A DNA stretch of 34,137 bases from a virus, in IMG/VR virus record IMGVR_UViG_3300007765_000021, positions 1 to 34,137 of that record. The stretch is one strand, 5' to 3'. A model generated the notes under the pieces. It was not told the origin of the DNA, searched no databases, and saw only the letters and a list, made by a program, of their open reading frames with translations. The position numbers and the translations under genes were made by a program. Shown here one piece after another: positions 14,728-27,252 of the stretch (the stretch's first letter is position 1; each line of letters starts with the position of its first letter).

Positions 14728-14780
14728 TTTGTTACAAAAAAACTACAACTATAACAACTATAAATGTAGTAACATTAAAG

Positions 14781-14808
14781 GACCCCTCTTCGGAGGGGTC
14801 TTTTTTTA
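14781..14808 (+). terminator. Rho-independent terminator after gp23
   Basis: A perfect 8-bp stem (GACCCCTC / GAGGGGTC) is closed by a TTCG tetraloop and followed by seven Ts. It ends the gp22-gp23 late transcript. Confidence 0.93.
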
Positions 14809-15527: not shown

Positions 15528-16106
15528 ATGGGTAAAATAAATCCTTTACAGAGGCAACCAGATGTTTTGAATTATGCACAGAATAATCAATTTAAATTAT
15601 TCCTGCCTATTTTTCCAACAACTGAATATTTTTGCACTAGGGTTAATATACCTGGAGTTAGTTTAGGACAGGCTAATCAGCCGACACCTTTAGTAGATAT
15701 GCCTTTGGTTGGAGATAAGCTTCAATATGATACTTTTAATGCTTCATTTTTAGTAGATGAGGAGTATAAAAATTATATTGAAATGTATGGGTGGTTAAAA
15801 AATATTGGTTTTCCGGAACAACATAAACAATATAATAGTTTAGAGCGTCCTGATAATATAAACAGAAGCACTACTAAAGTCAATGAAGCTGGAATTGAGT
15901 TTGAGGATAGTGATAGAAATTTGTACTGTGATATCTTAGTAACAATTCTTAATAGTAAGAATAATCCTGTTGCTAAAATAACTATGTATGAATCTTTCCC
16001 AATTAGTGTGGGTTCACTAGAATATAGTCAACAAGAAACCGATACAACTTATTTAAGTTGTGATTTAACCTTTGCTTATAGTTGGTTTGATATAGAATCT
16101 GTATAA
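15528..16106 (+). CDS. Tail-tube-fold virion protein (gp19/gp54-like; gp3 position)
   Basis: This 192-residue protein has the pattern of T4 gp19-related tail proteins: NNQFKLFLPIFPTTEYFC, then VNIPGVSLGQANQPTPLVDM, then GDKLQYDTFNASFLVDEEY and YGWLKNIGFPEQ. The iPGvslg...tP, gDkl and FlvDEe...W.k.lgFP signature is shared by small tube-like proteins of marine T4-like phages. T4-like cyanophages carry the tail-completion gene gp3 before uvsY, so this gene may do that job, but the sequence itself favours a tube or tube-initiator fold. It starts 5 bases after the upstream stop. Its own stop is inside a late promoter octamer. Confidence 0.65.
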   Translation: MGKINPLQRQPDVLNYAQNNQFKLFLPIFPTTEYFCTRVNIPGVSLGQANQPTPLVDMPLVGDKLQYDTFNASFLVDEEYKNYIEMYGWLKNIGFPEQHKQYNSLERPDNINRSTTKVNEAGIEFEDSDRNLYCDILVTILNSKNNPVAKITMYESFPISVGSLEYSQQETDTTYLSCDLTFAYSWFDIESV

Positions 16107-16109
16107 ATA
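16102..16109 (+). promoter_or_regulatory. Late promoter for the RNA element / uvsY region
   Basis: A perfect TATAAATA octamer overlapping the stop codon of the tail-tube-like gene. Counting as in T4 (octamer at -13 to -6), transcription would begin at about 16115, one base before the GGAACAGCTCG that forms the 5' strand of the closing stem described in the next entry. Confidence 0.6.
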
Positions 16110-16114
16110 TTTTT

Positions 16115-16229
16115 TGGAACAGCTCGTTGAGCTATGCGTAAGTGATGAAATTGTTGTAAAATCTTTTAAAAATAATGTAAAAGATTACATAGATTTATAA
16201 TATATTCAGCGAGCTGATTCCTTTTTTTT
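16115..16229 (+). ncRNA. Candidate structured small RNA (or uvsY leader/attenuator)
   Basis: This 115-base non-coding stretch begins where the 16102 late promoter should start transcription. Its 5' end (from 16116, GGAACAGCTCGTTGAG) pairs with its 3' end (16205-16221, ending CGAGCTGATTCC). The result is a stem of about 16 bp with two G-U pairs and one bulged A (16217), followed immediately by T8 (16222-16229). Inside, 16160-16168 and 16178-16186 form a 9-bp hairpin (AATCTTTTA / TAAAAGATT) with a 9-nt loop. A local alternative hairpin (AGCTC-GTT-GAGCT, 16121-16133) competes with the closing stem. Promoter, closed ends and T tract look like a complete RNA gene of about 110 nt. The ~73-nt loop is long for an ordinary terminator. 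It could instead be an attenuator for uvsY, whose ribosome-binding site directly follows the T tract. Confidence 0.55.
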
Positions 16230-16239
16230 GGTGAAAATT

Positions 16240-16665
16240 ATGAAGATAGATGATTTATATAATGAAGTAGAACGTGATTTGAAAATTGATGATACTGAAT
16301 TAGATATGGAGTCAATTCGGACTCCACAACTACATAACAAGTATTTGAAATATTATACACAACAGTCATTGCAGTATAAAAAACTAAAGGATGACTATAA
16401 AATAATGTATCGTGAGAAGTGGGAGTATTATACTGGTAAGGCTTCAGCTGAAATATATGCTGAAAAACCATTTGATTTAAAAATACTCAAAGCTGATATC
16501 AACATTTATTTGGAAGCTGACAGTGAGTTACAACAATTAAGCCAAAGAATGGCTTATACTAAACAGATAGTAGACTATCTAGAAAGAATATTAAAGGAGA
16601 TTAATAACAGAAATTGGAACATTCGTAATACCATAGAATGGAAAAAGTTTTTACATGGTGAGTAG
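16240..16665 (+). CDS. uvsY: UvsY recombination mediator
   Basis: A protein of 141 residues from the ATG at 16240 (T4 UvsY has 137). It loads the UvsX recombinase onto gp32-coated single-stranded DNA. Recognised by size, Lys/Glu/Tyr-rich helical character (EKWEYYTGKASAEIYAEKPF, then QRMAYTKQIVDYLERILKEI), the ending RNTIEWKKFLHG, and position directly before uvsW as in T4. In-frame TTG (16228) and GTG (16231) codons exist upstream. The ATG is preferred because GGTGA lies about 6-8 bases before it and the upstream codons fall in the T tract of the RNA element. Confidence 0.88.
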   Translation: MKIDDLYNEVERDLKIDDTELDMESIRTPQLHNKYLKYYTQQSLQYKKLKDDYKIMYREKWEYYTGKASAEIYAEKPFDLKILKADINIYLEADSELQQLSQRMAYTKQIVDYLERILKEINNRNWNIRNTIEWKKFLHGE

Positions 16666-19517: not shown

Positions 19518-19536
19518 GGGGTTAATTGGAGACCCT
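19518..19536 (+). promoter_or_regulatory. Hairpin over the gp55 ribosome-binding site
   Basis: GGGGTT at 19518-19523 can pair with GACCCT at 19531-19536 (six pairs with two G-U), leaving a 7-base loop. The GGAG ribosome-binding site of gp55 (19528-19531) lies in the loop and one stem base. The ATG is 2 bases beyond the hairpin, so it could tune translation of the late sigma factor. Confidence 0.35.
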
Positions 19537-19537
19537 A

Positions 19538-20026
19538 ATGGCTAAAAAAACAAAGAAGAAATCAATTCATTATGTAAACAATAAAGAGTTCTTAGCTGCA
19601 ATAATAGAAAGAAAAGAACTAATCAAAGAAGCTGAATCTGGTGGAGATCCTCTACCTCAGATTAGTAATTATTTAGGAGAATGTATCCTGAAGATTGCTA
19701 ATCATTTATCTTTTCGTCCAAATTTTATTAACTATACCTATCGTGAAGAAATGATTAGTGATGGTATTGAAAATTGCCTACAGTATATAGATAAGTTTGA
19801 CCCTGAGAAAAGTAAAAACCCATTTGCTTATTTTACTCAAATTATTTACTATGCGTTTGTTCGTAGAATTATAAAAGAAAAGAAACAGCAGCAAATTAAG
19901 GAGAAACTATTGAAAGAATCTAACATAGAATCTCGTATAGTTTTACAAGCACATGAAGATGAGGCTCAGTATCAACAACAGTTTGTGGAAATGCTAGATA
20001 AATATACTTTCCATCAAGATGAATAA
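19538..20026 (+). CDS. gp55: Late-transcription sigma factor gp55
   Basis: A protein of 162 residues from the ATG at 19538 (T4 gp55 has 185). It replaces host sigma70 on RNA polymerase and reads TATAAATA promoters when the gp45 clamp is loaded. Recognised by the region 2-like helix DKFDPEKSKNPFAYFTQIIY followed by FVRRIIKEKK, the upstream REEMISDGIENCLQYI segment, and an acidic, aromatic C-terminus (FVEMLDKYTFHQDE) where the clamp-binding tail lies in T4. An in-frame TTG at 19526 is rejected because GGAG fits the ATG. It ends 2 bases before gp47. Confidence 0.88.
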   Translation: MAKKTKKKSIHYVNNKEFLAAIIERKELIKEAESGGDPLPQISNYLGECILKIANHLSFRPNFINYTYREEMISDGIENCLQYIDKFDPEKSKNPFAYFTQIIYYAFVRRIIKEKKQQQIKEKLLKESNIESRIVLQAHEDEAQYQQQFVEMLDKYTFHQDE

Positions 20027-22803: not shown

Positions 22804-23373
22804 ATGGAATTAGTCACAGAAAAAAATAAGATATTGAAAGAGGTTTGTGATCCTTTTGATTTTGAAAATCCAATTGTGGAACCAAAAGAACTTATAACTA
22901 ATATGCAAGCGATCCGGCAAGAAAAGGCTGGCCTTGGACTGGCAGCTCCACAAGTTGGAATAAATAGTAGAGTATTAGTTATTGGTTTAAGTGATATGAC
23001 AGTTGAAGGTGCTGAAGATTATGCTAAGGCTTTTTTTAATCCGCAGATTTTTTGGGATCAAACTGCAAATACATATCCAGATAATGAATTAAATTATATG
23101 GTCGAGGGATGTTTGAGTTTTCCTGAATTGTTTTTAAAGATTAAAAGACCAAATCATATTATAATGGAATGGTATACAGAAGAAGGTAAACAAGAGGTAA
23201 GTGAATTTAGCGGAATGACCTCCCGAATACTTCAACACGAAATAGACCATCTAAATGGTATTACCTTTGATACAAAAACTTCATTGTACCATTTACAACA
23301 AGCTAAAAGGAAGGTCAAGGCACGATTAAGAGCTCGAAAGAGATTTGAATTAATTAAAAAACGAGGATATTAA
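22804..23373 (+). CDS. def: Peptide deformylase
   Basis: A 189-residue enzyme that removes the formyl group from the N-terminal Met of new proteins, using a metal held by one Cys and two His. All three motifs are intact: GLGLAAPQ at 43-50, EGCLSFP with C103, and QHEIDHL with H145, E146 and H149. Marine T4-like phages often carry this gene. It keeps the longer, basic C-terminal helix (LQQAKRKVKARLRARKRFEL). It closely follows gp46, so it probably belongs to the same transcript. Confidence 0.95.
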   Translation: MELVTEKNKILKEVCDPFDFENPIVEPKELITNMQAIRQEKAGLGLAAPQVGINSRVLVIGLSDMTVEGAEDYAKAFFNPQIFWDQTANTYPDNELNYMVEGCLSFPELFLKIKRPNHIIMEWYTEEGKQEVSEFSGMTSRILQHEIDHLNGITFDTKTSLYHLQQAKRKVKARLRARKRFELIKKRGY

Positions 23374-23374
23374 T

Positions 23375-23758
23375 ATGTTTGATGGGAAATTATCAAAATA
23401 TATACTAAGCAGTATTGCAAATTATCTACCAAATGTTGAACCAAATTATAAAGATTTGACCGATGATGTCTATATTAGTTTATTAAGTTGGTGTGAAAAT
23501 TGGCCATCACAGAAGGTTTATGAAACTGCTTATAAAGAGTCGCATATGGATCCAATTCAAACTTGGGATGAATGGGCGTCTGATATGAAGCCATTTCCTT
23601 TGCCAGTTAGGCTGGAGTTGCGCCGAGCATTATCTATACATCAAGAAATGGGTAGTTTAAAACCATTGCGTACCATTAATTACTTTTTAATTCATGGCAA
23701 AAAAGTATTTCTTTGGTCCTTTTTAGGGTTTTTAGTGTGGTGGACTTTCATTCAATAG
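23375..23758 (+). CDS. Hypothetical protein with C-terminal membrane segment
   Basis: A 127-residue protein. Residues 1-100 are soluble-looking and Trp-rich (LLSWCENWPSQKVYETAYKE, then TWDEWASDMKPFPLPVRLEL). Residues ~107-126 are strongly hydrophobic (VFLWSFLGFLVWWTFIQ), suggesting a tail anchor in the inner membrane. No family recognised. A GAGG ribosome-binding site precedes the ATG, and the last 22 bases overlap the start of the radical SAM gene. Its place at the head of the radical SAM-carbamoyltransferase cassette suggests it acts with those enzymes. Confidence 0.6.
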   Translation: MFDGKLSKYILSSIANYLPNVEPNYKDLTDDVYISLLSWCENWPSQKVYETAYKESHMDPIQTWDEWASDMKPFPLPVRLELRRALSIHQEMGSLKPLRTINYFLIHGKKVFLWSFLGFLVWWTFIQ

Positions 23759-24552
23759 AAAATTATAATCAAATATTTGATAATAATGAATTGATAATGT
23801 GGCTCGATATATCGACCTACTGTAATGCTAAGTGTCCTCAATGCCATAGAACAAATGCTAATGGACTTGGAAAAGTAGATTGGCTTCCTCTTAAGCAATG
23901 GTCTTTAGAAGATTTTAAAAAAGCTTTCCCCAAACAAATTTTAGATAAGATTCATCATTTTGATTTGTGTGGCACGTGGGGAGATCCAATTTTAAATAAA
24001 GATATACTTAAAATTGTTGAGTATATTGTAGATAATTCTTTTTTGCCATGGGTACAGATAAACACTAATGGTAGTGTTAGAGATGAGGAGTGGTGGTGGG
24101 AGTTGGGGAAAGTAGGTGGTTCTCGGCTGGTTGTAGTTTTTGATATAGATGGCATCACACAAGAACAACATTCTTTATATAGACAAAACACCAATTTAGA
24201 AAAGATTTTAAATAATATGGAATCTTTTAGCAACACAAAAGCTAAAGCAATAGCGTTCTCTGTTATCTTTGAGCACAATAGAAAAAGTATGTATGATATA
24301 GCTCTGTTGTCAAAGCGGAGAGGGGCTGCTGGTATCACTTTTATAGAATCAGATAGATTTTTTAAATTGGATGATCCTCCAGGCACAGGCGAAAGGGGTT
24401 ATATACCAACTAAAGAATTTATGTTTGTTGATAAATCAGGCCAGAAACAAAAATTACATCAATCTAATTGGCAAGCGAATGATTTTTTTTGGGTTTGGTG
24501 GGATCTGTCTAATGATGAGCACTTGGAAAAAATAAGACATGCCAGCAATTAA
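23737..24552 (+). CDS. Radical SAM enzyme (core domain, split from its C-terminal twitch)
   Basis: A 271-residue protein from GTG 23737 (AGGG lies 8 nt upstream; TTG 23713 and GTG 23740 are alternatives). The iron-sulfur/SAM motif is C29-x3-C33-x2-C36 (YCNAKCPQCHR). Further radical SAM features are CGTWGDPI in place of the GGE-type motif, QINTNGS, and FDIDGITQEQHSLYR. Reading stops at 24552, just where a C-terminal auxiliary domain would begin; that domain is encoded in the +1 frame from 24539. Either the enzyme is naturally two polypeptides, or it is joined by frameshifting, or a single-base error is present. The substrate is unknown. Confidence 0.8.
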   Translation: MVDFHSIENYNQIFDNNELIMWLDISTYCNAKCPQCHRTNANGLGKVDWLPLKQWSLEDFKKAFPKQILDKIHHFDLCGTWGDPILNKDILKIVEYIVDNSFLPWVQINTNGSVRDEEWWWELGKVGGSRLVVVFDIDGITQEQHSLYRQNTNLEKILNNMESFSNTKAKAIAFSVIFEHNRKSMYDIALLSKRRGAAGITFIESDRFFKLDDPPGTGERGYIPTKEFMFVDKSGQKQKLHQSNWQANDFFWVWWDLSNDEHLEKIRHASN

Positions 24553-24883
24553 ATGTGAGTGGATGTTAAATAAAAGAATTGTGGTGAATGTGGATGGCCA
24601 GGTATGGCCGTGTTGTTTTTTTGCTAACAGTGCATTTAAAGTGATGAATACTAAAGGTTTGGATGGTTGGGAAAGGTCATCAAGCCATCCTGAAAGAGTA
24701 GGCTATTATAATATGAAAATAATATTGGAGTATTATAAAAACAAAGATGATTATAATATTTTTAAAAAACCTTTGGAAGAAATTATTAATTCAGACTGGT
24801 TTACAAAAACATTACCCGAATCATGGCAAATAGAAAACGATACTTGTGTCCTTTGTAAGAGGTTTTGTAGTGTTAAATCCTAG
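24539..24883 (+). CDS. SPASM/twitch-type domain protein (C-terminal half of a radical SAM enzyme)
   Basis: A 114-residue protein. The N-terminus IKCEWMLNKRIVVNVDGQVW followed by PCCFF is the auxiliary cluster-binding pattern that follows the core of SPASM/twitch radical SAM enzymes (Cys, then Gly-x-Val-x-Pro-Cys-Cys). Two further Cys pairs occur near the end (CVLCKRFC). It lacks the CxxxCxxC SAM motif and so cannot be a radical SAM enzyme alone. It begins 14 bases inside the upstream core gene in the +1 frame, with only a weak ribosome-binding site, and its end overlaps the next gene by 14 bases. A stand-alone partner protein and a frameshifted C-terminus are both possible. Confidence 0.7.
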   Translation: MPAIKCEWMLNKRIVVNVDGQVWPCCFFANSAFKVMNTKGLDGWERSSSHPERVGYYNMKIILEYYKNKDDYNIFKKPLEEIINSDWFTKTLPESWQIENDTCVLCKRFCSVKS

Positions 24884-25934
24884 ATGTATGCAGAGAGCAA
24901 TGATTAACTCATTAAAATTTATGTCCAATGGGTATATTGCTCCGTGTTGTTGGTTGACAGATAAGAATTCTGTCAGCGAACACCTAGGAATATATGATGA
25001 AGAACTAAAATTAAAAAATGTGGATACAGTAGAAGAAATTTTACTTTCAGACCAATGGGACGATTTTATTAATAAATTAATTTCTCACCATGACTGGCAG
25101 AGCTCTGACGGAAACTGGTTGCTGCCGCGGGAATGCCTGCAAGTATGTGGATCTGATGATAATGATGTTGATGTATTTGGTAACAAATACCACCACACTT
25201 TGCCAACTAAAGAGAAATTTTTTAAAAATATATTTAATCGTAATGTAGAAGAAACTATTATTAATAATGAAAAAGAAGGAAGTATAATTTCGATTGATTT
25301 AGGATATTCTTGCCCAATACAATGCCCCATGTGTATAAGGACACTTCAACCTGAATTAGTAAAAGAAGCTAAAAGGGAGTATGGTAACATACGGACTGAT
25401 GATTTAAAAAAGTTATGTAAATTTTTTGATGATTTAATTTTTTGCGGAAATTTGTCCGACCCAATATATCATCCAAAATTTATAGAATTGATGAAAATTG
25501 TTATAGAAAAATATAAAAGAAAATTAATGATAGTGACTAATGGGTCTGGTAAGAAAAGAGATTGGTGGGAAACTGTTTTTAAACTATCACGTCCAGGTGA
25601 AGGTGTAATAGTTCAAAATGCTCCAGTTCATTGGTTTTTTGCTTTAGATGGACTTCCACATCAGAGTTCAAAATATAGAGTCAATCAAAACGGAGAACAA
25701 GTGTTTGAGATGATGAAAATGGGCTCAGATATGGGGTGTTATATTGTTTGGCAGTGGATTGTTTTTGGTTATAATGAAAATTCTATTGAAGAAGGAAGAG
25801 AATTAGCTGCAAAACATAATATAGAATTCCGCATTTTAAATTCAGATAGATTTCATTCAGAATATGAAAGGGCAATGGACCCCACAGTATATGAAATGCT
25901 AAAACCTTCAAAGGAATATTATAATAAGGATTGA
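24870..25934 (+). CDS. Twitch domain-containing radical SAM enzyme (N-terminal twitch)
   Basis: A 354-residue protein from GTG 24870, preceded by AAGAGG at about 7 nt. The domain order is reversed from the usual. The N-terminus has a twitch/SPASM-like segment (LNPRC, then FMSNGYIAPCCWL with C26 and C27). The radical SAM core begins near residue 140 with C148-x3-C152-x2-C155 (CPIQCPMCIR). Further on are NLSDPIYHP, VTNGSG and FALDGLPHQSSKYR. This matches the family annotated as twitch domain-containing radical SAM protein, seen in bacterial polysaccharide loci and marine phages. It lies between the split radical SAM gene and the carbamoyltransferase. The substrate is unknown. Confidence 0.82.
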   Translation: MLNPRCMQRAMINSLKFMSNGYIAPCCWLTDKNSVSEHLGIYDEELKLKNVDTVEEILLSDQWDDFINKLISHHDWQSSDGNWLLPRECLQVCGSDDNDVDVFGNKYHHTLPTKEKFFKNIFNRNVEETIINNEKEGSIISIDLGYSCPIQCPMCIRTLQPELVKEAKREYGNIRTDDLKKLCKFFDDLIFCGNLSDPIYHPKFIELMKIVIEKYKRKLMIVTNGSGKKRDWWETVFKLSRPGEGVIVQNAPVHWFFALDGLPHQSSKYRVNQNGEQVFEMMKMGSDMGCYIVWQWIVFGYNENSIEEGRELAAKHNIEFRILNSDRFHSEYERAMDPTVYEMLKPSKEYYNKD

Positions 25935-25938
25935 CAAA

Positions 25939-27252
25939 TTGAAGATCCTAGGGTTTAGTGAGGGGTACCATGATGCTGGCGTAACGTTAATAGAGAACGG
26001 TGAAATTCTTTATGCATCTCATGCTGAACGTTACTCTAAAAAGAAGAATGATAGATTAATACACCCACAACAGATAAAGAAATCAGATGTGGTTGCTTTT
26101 TATGAGAAGTCTTTTTTAAAAAATACTCGTAGATTATATTCTGGCCAAGGATGGAAGAGAAGAAAGACTAGTATACCATATGATTATGCTTACTCACACC
26201 ATCAAAGCCATGCAGCTGCAGGATATTTCACATCACCTTTTGATGATTGTAATATTTTAGTAATAGATGCTATAGGTGAATGGGATACTATTTCTATTTG
26301 GGATGGTATACAGAAGGTTATTAGTTGGAAGTATCCATATTCTTTGGGTCTATTATATTCAGCTGTAACACATCGTATAGGATTAAAACCAAATGAAGAT
26401 GAATATATTACAATGGGTATGGCTGCATATGGAGAACCGATTTATGATTTGTCAGAATTACTATCAAGAAATAATCATAAAGGTTTGGGCAATTATAAAC
26501 CAAATGCTAGAGAGGAAGATTTAGCTGCATCAGTACAATTCCTTTATGAAAAAGAATTATTGAATTTGGTTGAATTGTGTCCTAAAGACAATCTTATATT
26601 GATGGGTGGTTGCGCTTTGAATTGTGTGGCAAATTCAAAGATAAAGAATAAGAACATATGGATAATGCCTAACCCCGGTGATGCTGGATCATCTTTAGGA
26701 GCTGCAGCATTATATTATGGAAAAAAATTAAACTGGGTAGATCCTTATTTGGGTTATGAATTACCGAGATCAAACCCAAAGAAGATTGTTAAAGAACTTT
26801 TGAAAAATGGTGTATGCGGTGTGGCATCTGGAAGAGCTGAGTTTGGTCCAAGAGCGTTAGGCAACCGATCTTTACTTGCTGATTGTAGATTGAATATAAA
26901 AGATAAAGTTAATGAAATAAAACGCAGACAAAAGTATAGACCTTTTGCACCTGCTATAATGGAAGAATATGCAGATGAATATTTTGATGGACCTATGAAT
27001 GAATATATGCAATTTGTATCTTATGCTAAACATGATTATGATTCTGTAACTCATGTAGACGGTACGGCAAGAGTACAATTGGTCAAACCAACTTGCAACT
27101 CAGTGATAAGACAAGTTTTGGAAGAGTGGTACGATAAAACTGGTGTACCTATGTTACTTAACACTTCACTAAATATTAAAGGTATGCCTATGGTTAATGA
27201 TGAAATGGACGTGAAACAATTTATAGAAACATATGGGGTTCAAGTTTTATGA
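25939..27252 (+). CDS. Carbamoyltransferase (NodU/CmcH family)
   Basis: A 437-residue enzyme of the family that transfers carbamoyl groups from carbamoyl phosphate to sugar or antibiotic hydroxyls through a carbamoyl-AMP intermediate. N-terminal Kae1-like part: ILGFSEGYHDAGVTLI, AERYSKKKND, and the metal-binding HHQSHAA. Later GMAAYGEP and MGGCALNCVAN. C-terminal part: SGRAEFGPRALGNRSLLADC, KYRPFAPAI and LLNTSLNIKGMPMV. It is shorter than typical members (about 550-600). LADCR and AERYSKKK depart from the usual LADPR and EERFTRxK. It starts at TTG with AAGGA 8 nt upstream. The most likely substrate is a surface glycan or a modified nucleotide sugar. Confidence 0.92.
   Translation: MKILGFSEGYHDAGVTLIENGEILYASHAERYSKKKNDRLIHPQQIKKSDVVAFYEKSFLKNTRRLYSGQGWKRRKTSIPYDYAYSHHQSHAAAGYFTSPFDDCNILVIDAIGEWDTISIWDGIQKVISWKYPYSLGLLYSAVTHRIGLKPNEDEYITMGMAAYGEPIYDLSELLSRNNHKGLGNYKPNAREEDLAASVQFLYEKELLNLVELCPKDNLILMGGCALNCVANSKIKNKNIWIMPNPGDAGSSLGAAALYYGKKLNWVDPYLGYELPRSNPKKIVKELLKNGVCGVASGRAEFGPRALGNRSLLADCRLNIKDKVNEIKRRQKYRPFAPAIMEEYADEYFDGPMNEYMQFVSYAKHDYDSVTHVDGTARVQLVKPTCNSVIRQVLEEWYDKTGVPMLLNTSLNIKGMPMVNDEMDVKQFIETYGVQVL

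Follow-up and report, generated by a model that had tools for sequence, protein, structure and literature searches.

Upstream of the DNA-repair gene uvsY in a marine T4-like myovirus (a source record of 34 kb, analysed over its full 34,137 nucleotides and referred to here as the window), a folded RNA element was found that probably acts in cis as the structured 5'-terminal leader of the late uvsY-uvsW-gp55-gp47/46 transcript, as judged from sequence comparison. The element belongs to a family, about 100 nt in length, of which 89 distinct elements were collected from contigs of marine T4-like phages and from Melnitz, an isolated phage of Methylophilales. In these marine phages, the RNA family sits where the virion genes give way to the block for recombination and the late sigma factor.

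Gene neighbourhood, promoter and fold

The element is placed exactly between the capsid and tail genes and the uvsY-uvsW-gp55-gp47/46 genes, and all features described here lie on the plus strand. On the upstream side, the tail-tube-family gene (phrog_45, 15528-16106) ends within the late promoter, whose octamer TATAAATA (16102-16109) takes in its stop codon. On the downstream side, uvsY (phrog_231, 16240-16665) begins with an ATG at 16240 preceded by GGTGA, and heads a block of the form uvsY-uvsW-...-gp55 (19526-20026)-gp47-gp46, in which gp55 is the late sigma factor. Elsewhere in the window, a textbook intrinsic terminator (14777-14804; 12-bp stem, TTCG loop, T tract) stands 3' of the major capsid gene, and the region downstream of gp46 (22804-27252) holds genes for a peptide deformylase, two radical-SAM-like proteins and a Nol-like carbamoyltransferase.

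The T4-type octamer has the same spacing as the octamer of all curated relatives; taken alone it is not significant, with TATAAATA occurring 7 times in the window against 5.5 expected. At T4 late promoters, the TATA box lies about one helical turn upstream of the transcription start (PMC2988020). By this rule, transcription is predicted to begin at 16115/16116, one helical turn 3' of the octamer, which coincides with the first base of GGAACAGCTCG and with the first paired base of the fold. The first-pass annotation had proposed this arrangement, a perfect late octamer with a predicted start near 16115 one base from a stem, and it was borne out, with the stem running from 16116. RNAfold also returned the closing stem described there, of about 16 bp with one bulged A and a following T8. 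In this stem, P1, the 5' strand (16116-16131) is joined to the 3' strand (16205-16221) by pairing of 16116-16119 with 16218-16221 and of 16120-16131 with 16205-16216, giving 16 bp with A16217 bulged. The T8 tract follows directly (16222-16229) and is terminator-like in the window's lineage.

Within P1, the internal hairpin P3 (16161-16185) was recovered with 8 bp (16161-16168/16178-16185) plus further pairs, where 9 bp had been noted before, and an equivalent hairpin is present in all groups of relatives. 3' of P3 lies ACATAG (16187-16192), a core motif present there in nearly all groups in the form ACAUAG, AUAUAG or AUUUAG. The hairpin AGCTC-GTT-GAGCT, previously suggested to compete with the closing stem, was located at 16121-16133; sister sequences have a local hairpin here too, made of other letters. 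The 123-nt stretch folds at -32.6 kcal/mol, compared with -19.1 +/- 3.0 for shuffles (z -4.5, 0 of 200 shuffles as good), and the trimmed element reaches a z of -6.0 against shuffles. A leader peptide was considered and rejected, the element in the window having only frames of 3-4 codons that are not conserved by eye.

A family of elements with a fixed architecture

Relatives were gathered by UvsY protein searches of viral contigs, followed by comparison of the stretch before uvsY. The 89 elements fall into six groups, namely W (window-like, 4 distinct sequences), A (17), B (21), C (8), D (13) and M (26, with the Melnitz isolates). In all of them the order is late octamer, P1, inner stem P2, hairpin P3, a motif like A-(C/U)-(A/U)-UAG, P2', P1' and uvsY, and the window shares with its relatives the features by which the family was tested: the late octamer, P1 at +1, an inner hairpin followed by A-(C/U)-(A/U)-UAG, and uvsY. 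The octamer of the relatives reads NATAAATA and rarely TATAAGTA (three elements). From its first base to the start of P1 the distance is 11-14 nt (sd 0.5), whereas from P1 to the uvsY ATG it is 10-28 nt (sd 3.9). Since P1 begins at a set distance from the promoter and at a variable distance from the ATG, the 5' end of the transcript appears to be the part held constant. The letters of P1 differ from group to group with pairing kept, for instance as GAAGCAGU/ACUGCUUC, GAGAAGGUAG/CUACCUUCUC, GAGAUGGUCA/UGACCAUCUC, GAGCAG/CUGCUC and GGAACAGCUCG/CGAGCUGAUUCC, and an internal loop (UAAG / CUCU), the inner stem and the core motif are kept over divergent lineages. Only 6 of the 17 members of group A, unlike the other groups, have a Shine-Dalgarno-like sequence separating the RNA from the start of uvsY; L022 and L032 are examples without it.

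A stem anchored at +1 with a stem score of at least 18 was found at 95 of 103 uvsY sites, compared with 48 of 2232 random positions; the count allows no bulge, and the window scores low in it because its A is bulged. Nearly all of the top-scoring other TATAAATA sites with a strong stem turned out to be further uvsY leaders, from lineages including L253, L232, L244 and L180. The exception, one site in L242, looks like a tRNA gene.

Covariation, covariance models and the place of the window

When sequences were aligned with no reference to structure, P1 and the inner stems covaried more than in shuffled or slid controls. In groups A and C together, 98.5% of the cells of P1 and P2 are paired, and 27 double-change cells were counted against 8.7 in shuffles, a value that 0 of 500 shuffles reached. 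Group A alone gave 13 such cells against 3.4, and group M (P1, P2 and P3) gave 16 against 3.5; these counts are not probabilities, because the shuffle control ignores relatedness. In each of these three sets the signal was lost when the partner strand was slid by 1-3 columns. In addition, group B contributes three more pairs with double changes. These results bear on whether the element could be a chance structure or a feature of the DNA, such as a recombination hairpin, which is very improbable. AT-rich sequence does yield many weak hairpins, and inverted repeats form in DNA too, but orientation and promoter spacing are fixed, and G-U pairs together with compensatory changes in excess of both controls recur in separate groups.

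Three covariance models were built. R1, from group A only, gave full-length matches exactly at the site in groups B and C and in most of D (E 7e-7 to about 0.2 in 393 kb), and R2, from groups A to D, matched the remaining tested members of D. R3, from group M, matched other members of M and, in the complete Melnitz genome, a single copy located at uvsY. Group M was not matched significantly by R1 or R2, nor were the other groups by R3. Antisense matches of R1 in group A were discarded as mirror images of the stems. A search for compensatory changes and a covariance model had been proposed as a check on the element, and its outcome was divided: the changes are present in relatives (A and C together, A, and M), whereas the element of the window itself has no significant model match. 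The right place was picked out, but with E values of 6 (393 kb), 2.4 and 0.32, the last being only the third best match within the window. For this reason, the window is tied to the family by position, promoter spacing, the UvsY tree and a short core (P3 with ACAUAG after it). Groups W and M thus owe their place in the family to context and architecture and not to a model score. In the UvsY tree (142 columns), the window and L012 were grouped with the A-type carriers L003, L005, L040 and L045 (support 99/95), and a single clade (100/99) comprised groups A, B, C, D and W; the placement of L010/L011 is weak.

Probable function as a late leader of uvsY

Conservation, position and covariation are taken from the sequence; the start of transcription, its termination and the control of uvsY are what we infer. 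The late transcript would start at 16115/16116 and run on into uvsY, uvsW, gp55 and gp47/gp46. P1 would pair its first nucleotides with the stretch just before the ribosome-binding region of uvsY, so that the mRNA would have no free 5' end and the RNA domain would adjoin the uvsY start. In this position, the leader would set in cis what share of the late transcript reaches the recombination and late-transcription block or is translated there, and it would protect the 5' end of the transcript. The fixed spacing to the promoter, combined with the free spacing to the start codon, implies that the transcript's 5' end is important.

In most relatives, 2-5 T are found in the 8 nt after P1, running straight into the uvsY start region. 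As most relatives thus lack a T tract, read-through into uvsY is likely the general state, and the RNA would usually belong to the uvsY message. In group W, by comparison, 7-8 of the 8 nt are T, and T-rich tails also occur in some lineages outside it (e.g. L231, L244 and L253). P1 in the window's lineage would form one long helix continued by T8, probably a leaky terminator (attenuator) there, and an RNA of about 110 nt may be released as a by-product of attenuation. The likeness to intrinsic terminators and attenuators, a strong stem leading directly into 7-8 T, is confined to the window and a few other lineages; the uvsY stem closes an internally folded domain of about 70 nt and not a short loop, and a terminator scan (loop 3-8) does not list the element of the window.

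The T8 tract also counts against the leader, as it would end many transcripts of the window before uvsY and fits a discrete RNA equally. The element could then be a separate small RNA of the phage, about 85-125 nt long and transcribed from a late promoter of its own, with targets in trans among the RNAs or proteins of phage or host, and followed by uvsY only through conserved gene order. Its 5' end is fixed by the promoter, the stem with T8 in the window and the T-rich tails in the three lineages named above resemble a terminator, and the conserved core lies within loops. Constant position alone is no proof of cis action, because gene order here is conserved anyway. Such a small RNA is nevertheless rather unlikely, since most relatives have no terminator-like tail and the element was never found away from uvsY. 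The first-pass annotation had favoured an independent RNA gene of about 110 nt; of this, a real RNA element stands, by its conserved position and the compensatory changes in relatives, whereas independence with a defined 3' end is conjectural, T8 being restricted to the window's lineage and a few others. The family is better accounted for by the alternative offered there, an attenuating leader of uvsY.

A stem at the 5' end is known to stabilise mRNAs, and the element might mainly be such a stabilising stem, or a terminator that insulates the recombination block from the virion genes, and in either case would neither sense nor bind a specific partner. Its exact position between these two sets of genes and the T8 of the window would agree with this. 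However, an inner stem, an internal loop and a core motif kept over divergent lineages would be superfluous in a plain stem, and most members have no T tract, which makes this explanation improbable. The cis-acting uvsY leader could also go beyond simple attenuation and represent a new class of regulatory RNA at T4-type late promoters, a switching leader that would sense a product of the phage (UvsY, gp55 or gp32, or the state of ssDNA) and couple late transcription to recombination; this extension is rather doubtful.

A possible helix switch in group M

Group M offers a candidate for such regulation at the level of RNA structure. In L132 (2893-2975) and other loci of the group, the 3' strand AAGUUC has two possible partners, GAACUU further upstream and GAAC close by. 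Read sequence by sequence, both of these mutually exclusive helices can form in all 26 members; three rows were anchored on an earlier GGT, and the GAACTTT/AAAGTTC pairing is visible there too. Both options are kept in L166, L179 and L213 despite changed letters, which suggests, short of statistical proof, that the helices could constitute a bistable switch. In groups B and C, no consistent counterpart of the 3' alternative helix was seen, and alignment counts for local alternative hairpins as a family-wide switch showed no excess over shuffles. A tRNA-like reading of the Melnitz group was rejected, as ARAGORN reported 0 tRNA/tmRNA genes in 8 loci.

Comparison with known systems

The view that no RNA had been described at this spot is consistent with database and literature searches. 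Rfam 15 at the gathering cut-off gave no match for the window or 8 relatives, permissive scans gave chance-level matches only, and a literature search found no paper describing a uvsY-leader RNA. The uvsY-leader family is therefore apparently undescribed. To our knowledge, only a few coliphage genes have had their T4-type leader control worked out in detail. The leader of the T4 gene 32 mRNA carries a 5' pseudoknot used in autogenous control and, like the uvsY element, is a structured 5' leader of a T4-type replication/recombination gene located upstream of the ribosome-binding site (PMC3014915). The uvsY element differs in its gene, its nested P1-P2-P3 fold and its late promoter. T4 gene e likewise combines an RNA structure at the start region with a late promoter (PMC3014915), but the 5' strand of that structure is missing from its late transcripts, whereas the predicted uvsY late transcript holds the whole element. 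Other structured RNAs of marine T4-like phages include the manA and wcaG motifs (PMC2864571) and the glutamine riboswitch (glnA motif) at ssrA in Melnitz (PMC9004378); these belong to different genes and places, and no Rfam model matches the uvsY element.

Distribution among phages

An exact scan with the core pattern over 2.9 million viral contigs of IMG/VR returned 49 stretches, 48 of them at the uvsY locus by inspection. In the relatives collected, the element is always followed by uvsY, and the complete Melnitz genome has a single copy. Nucleotide searches of isolate phages found no element. In the cyanophage records inspected, uvsY follows the upstream gene with hardly any gap or none, apart from S-P4 (about 120 nt), and the element is absent before uvsY in the pelagiphages HTVC008M and Mosig and in Mosig-like pelagiphage contigs. 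Because the isolate Melnitz has the element and HTVC008M and Mosig are without it there, its effect on expression is testable in culture. In the Mosig-like pelagiphage contigs (L292-L364), a strongly conserved sigma-70-like stretch resembling TTTACA-N17-TAGGAT stands immediately before uvsY in place of the late promoter and the RNA, which suggests that the timing of uvsY differs between clades.
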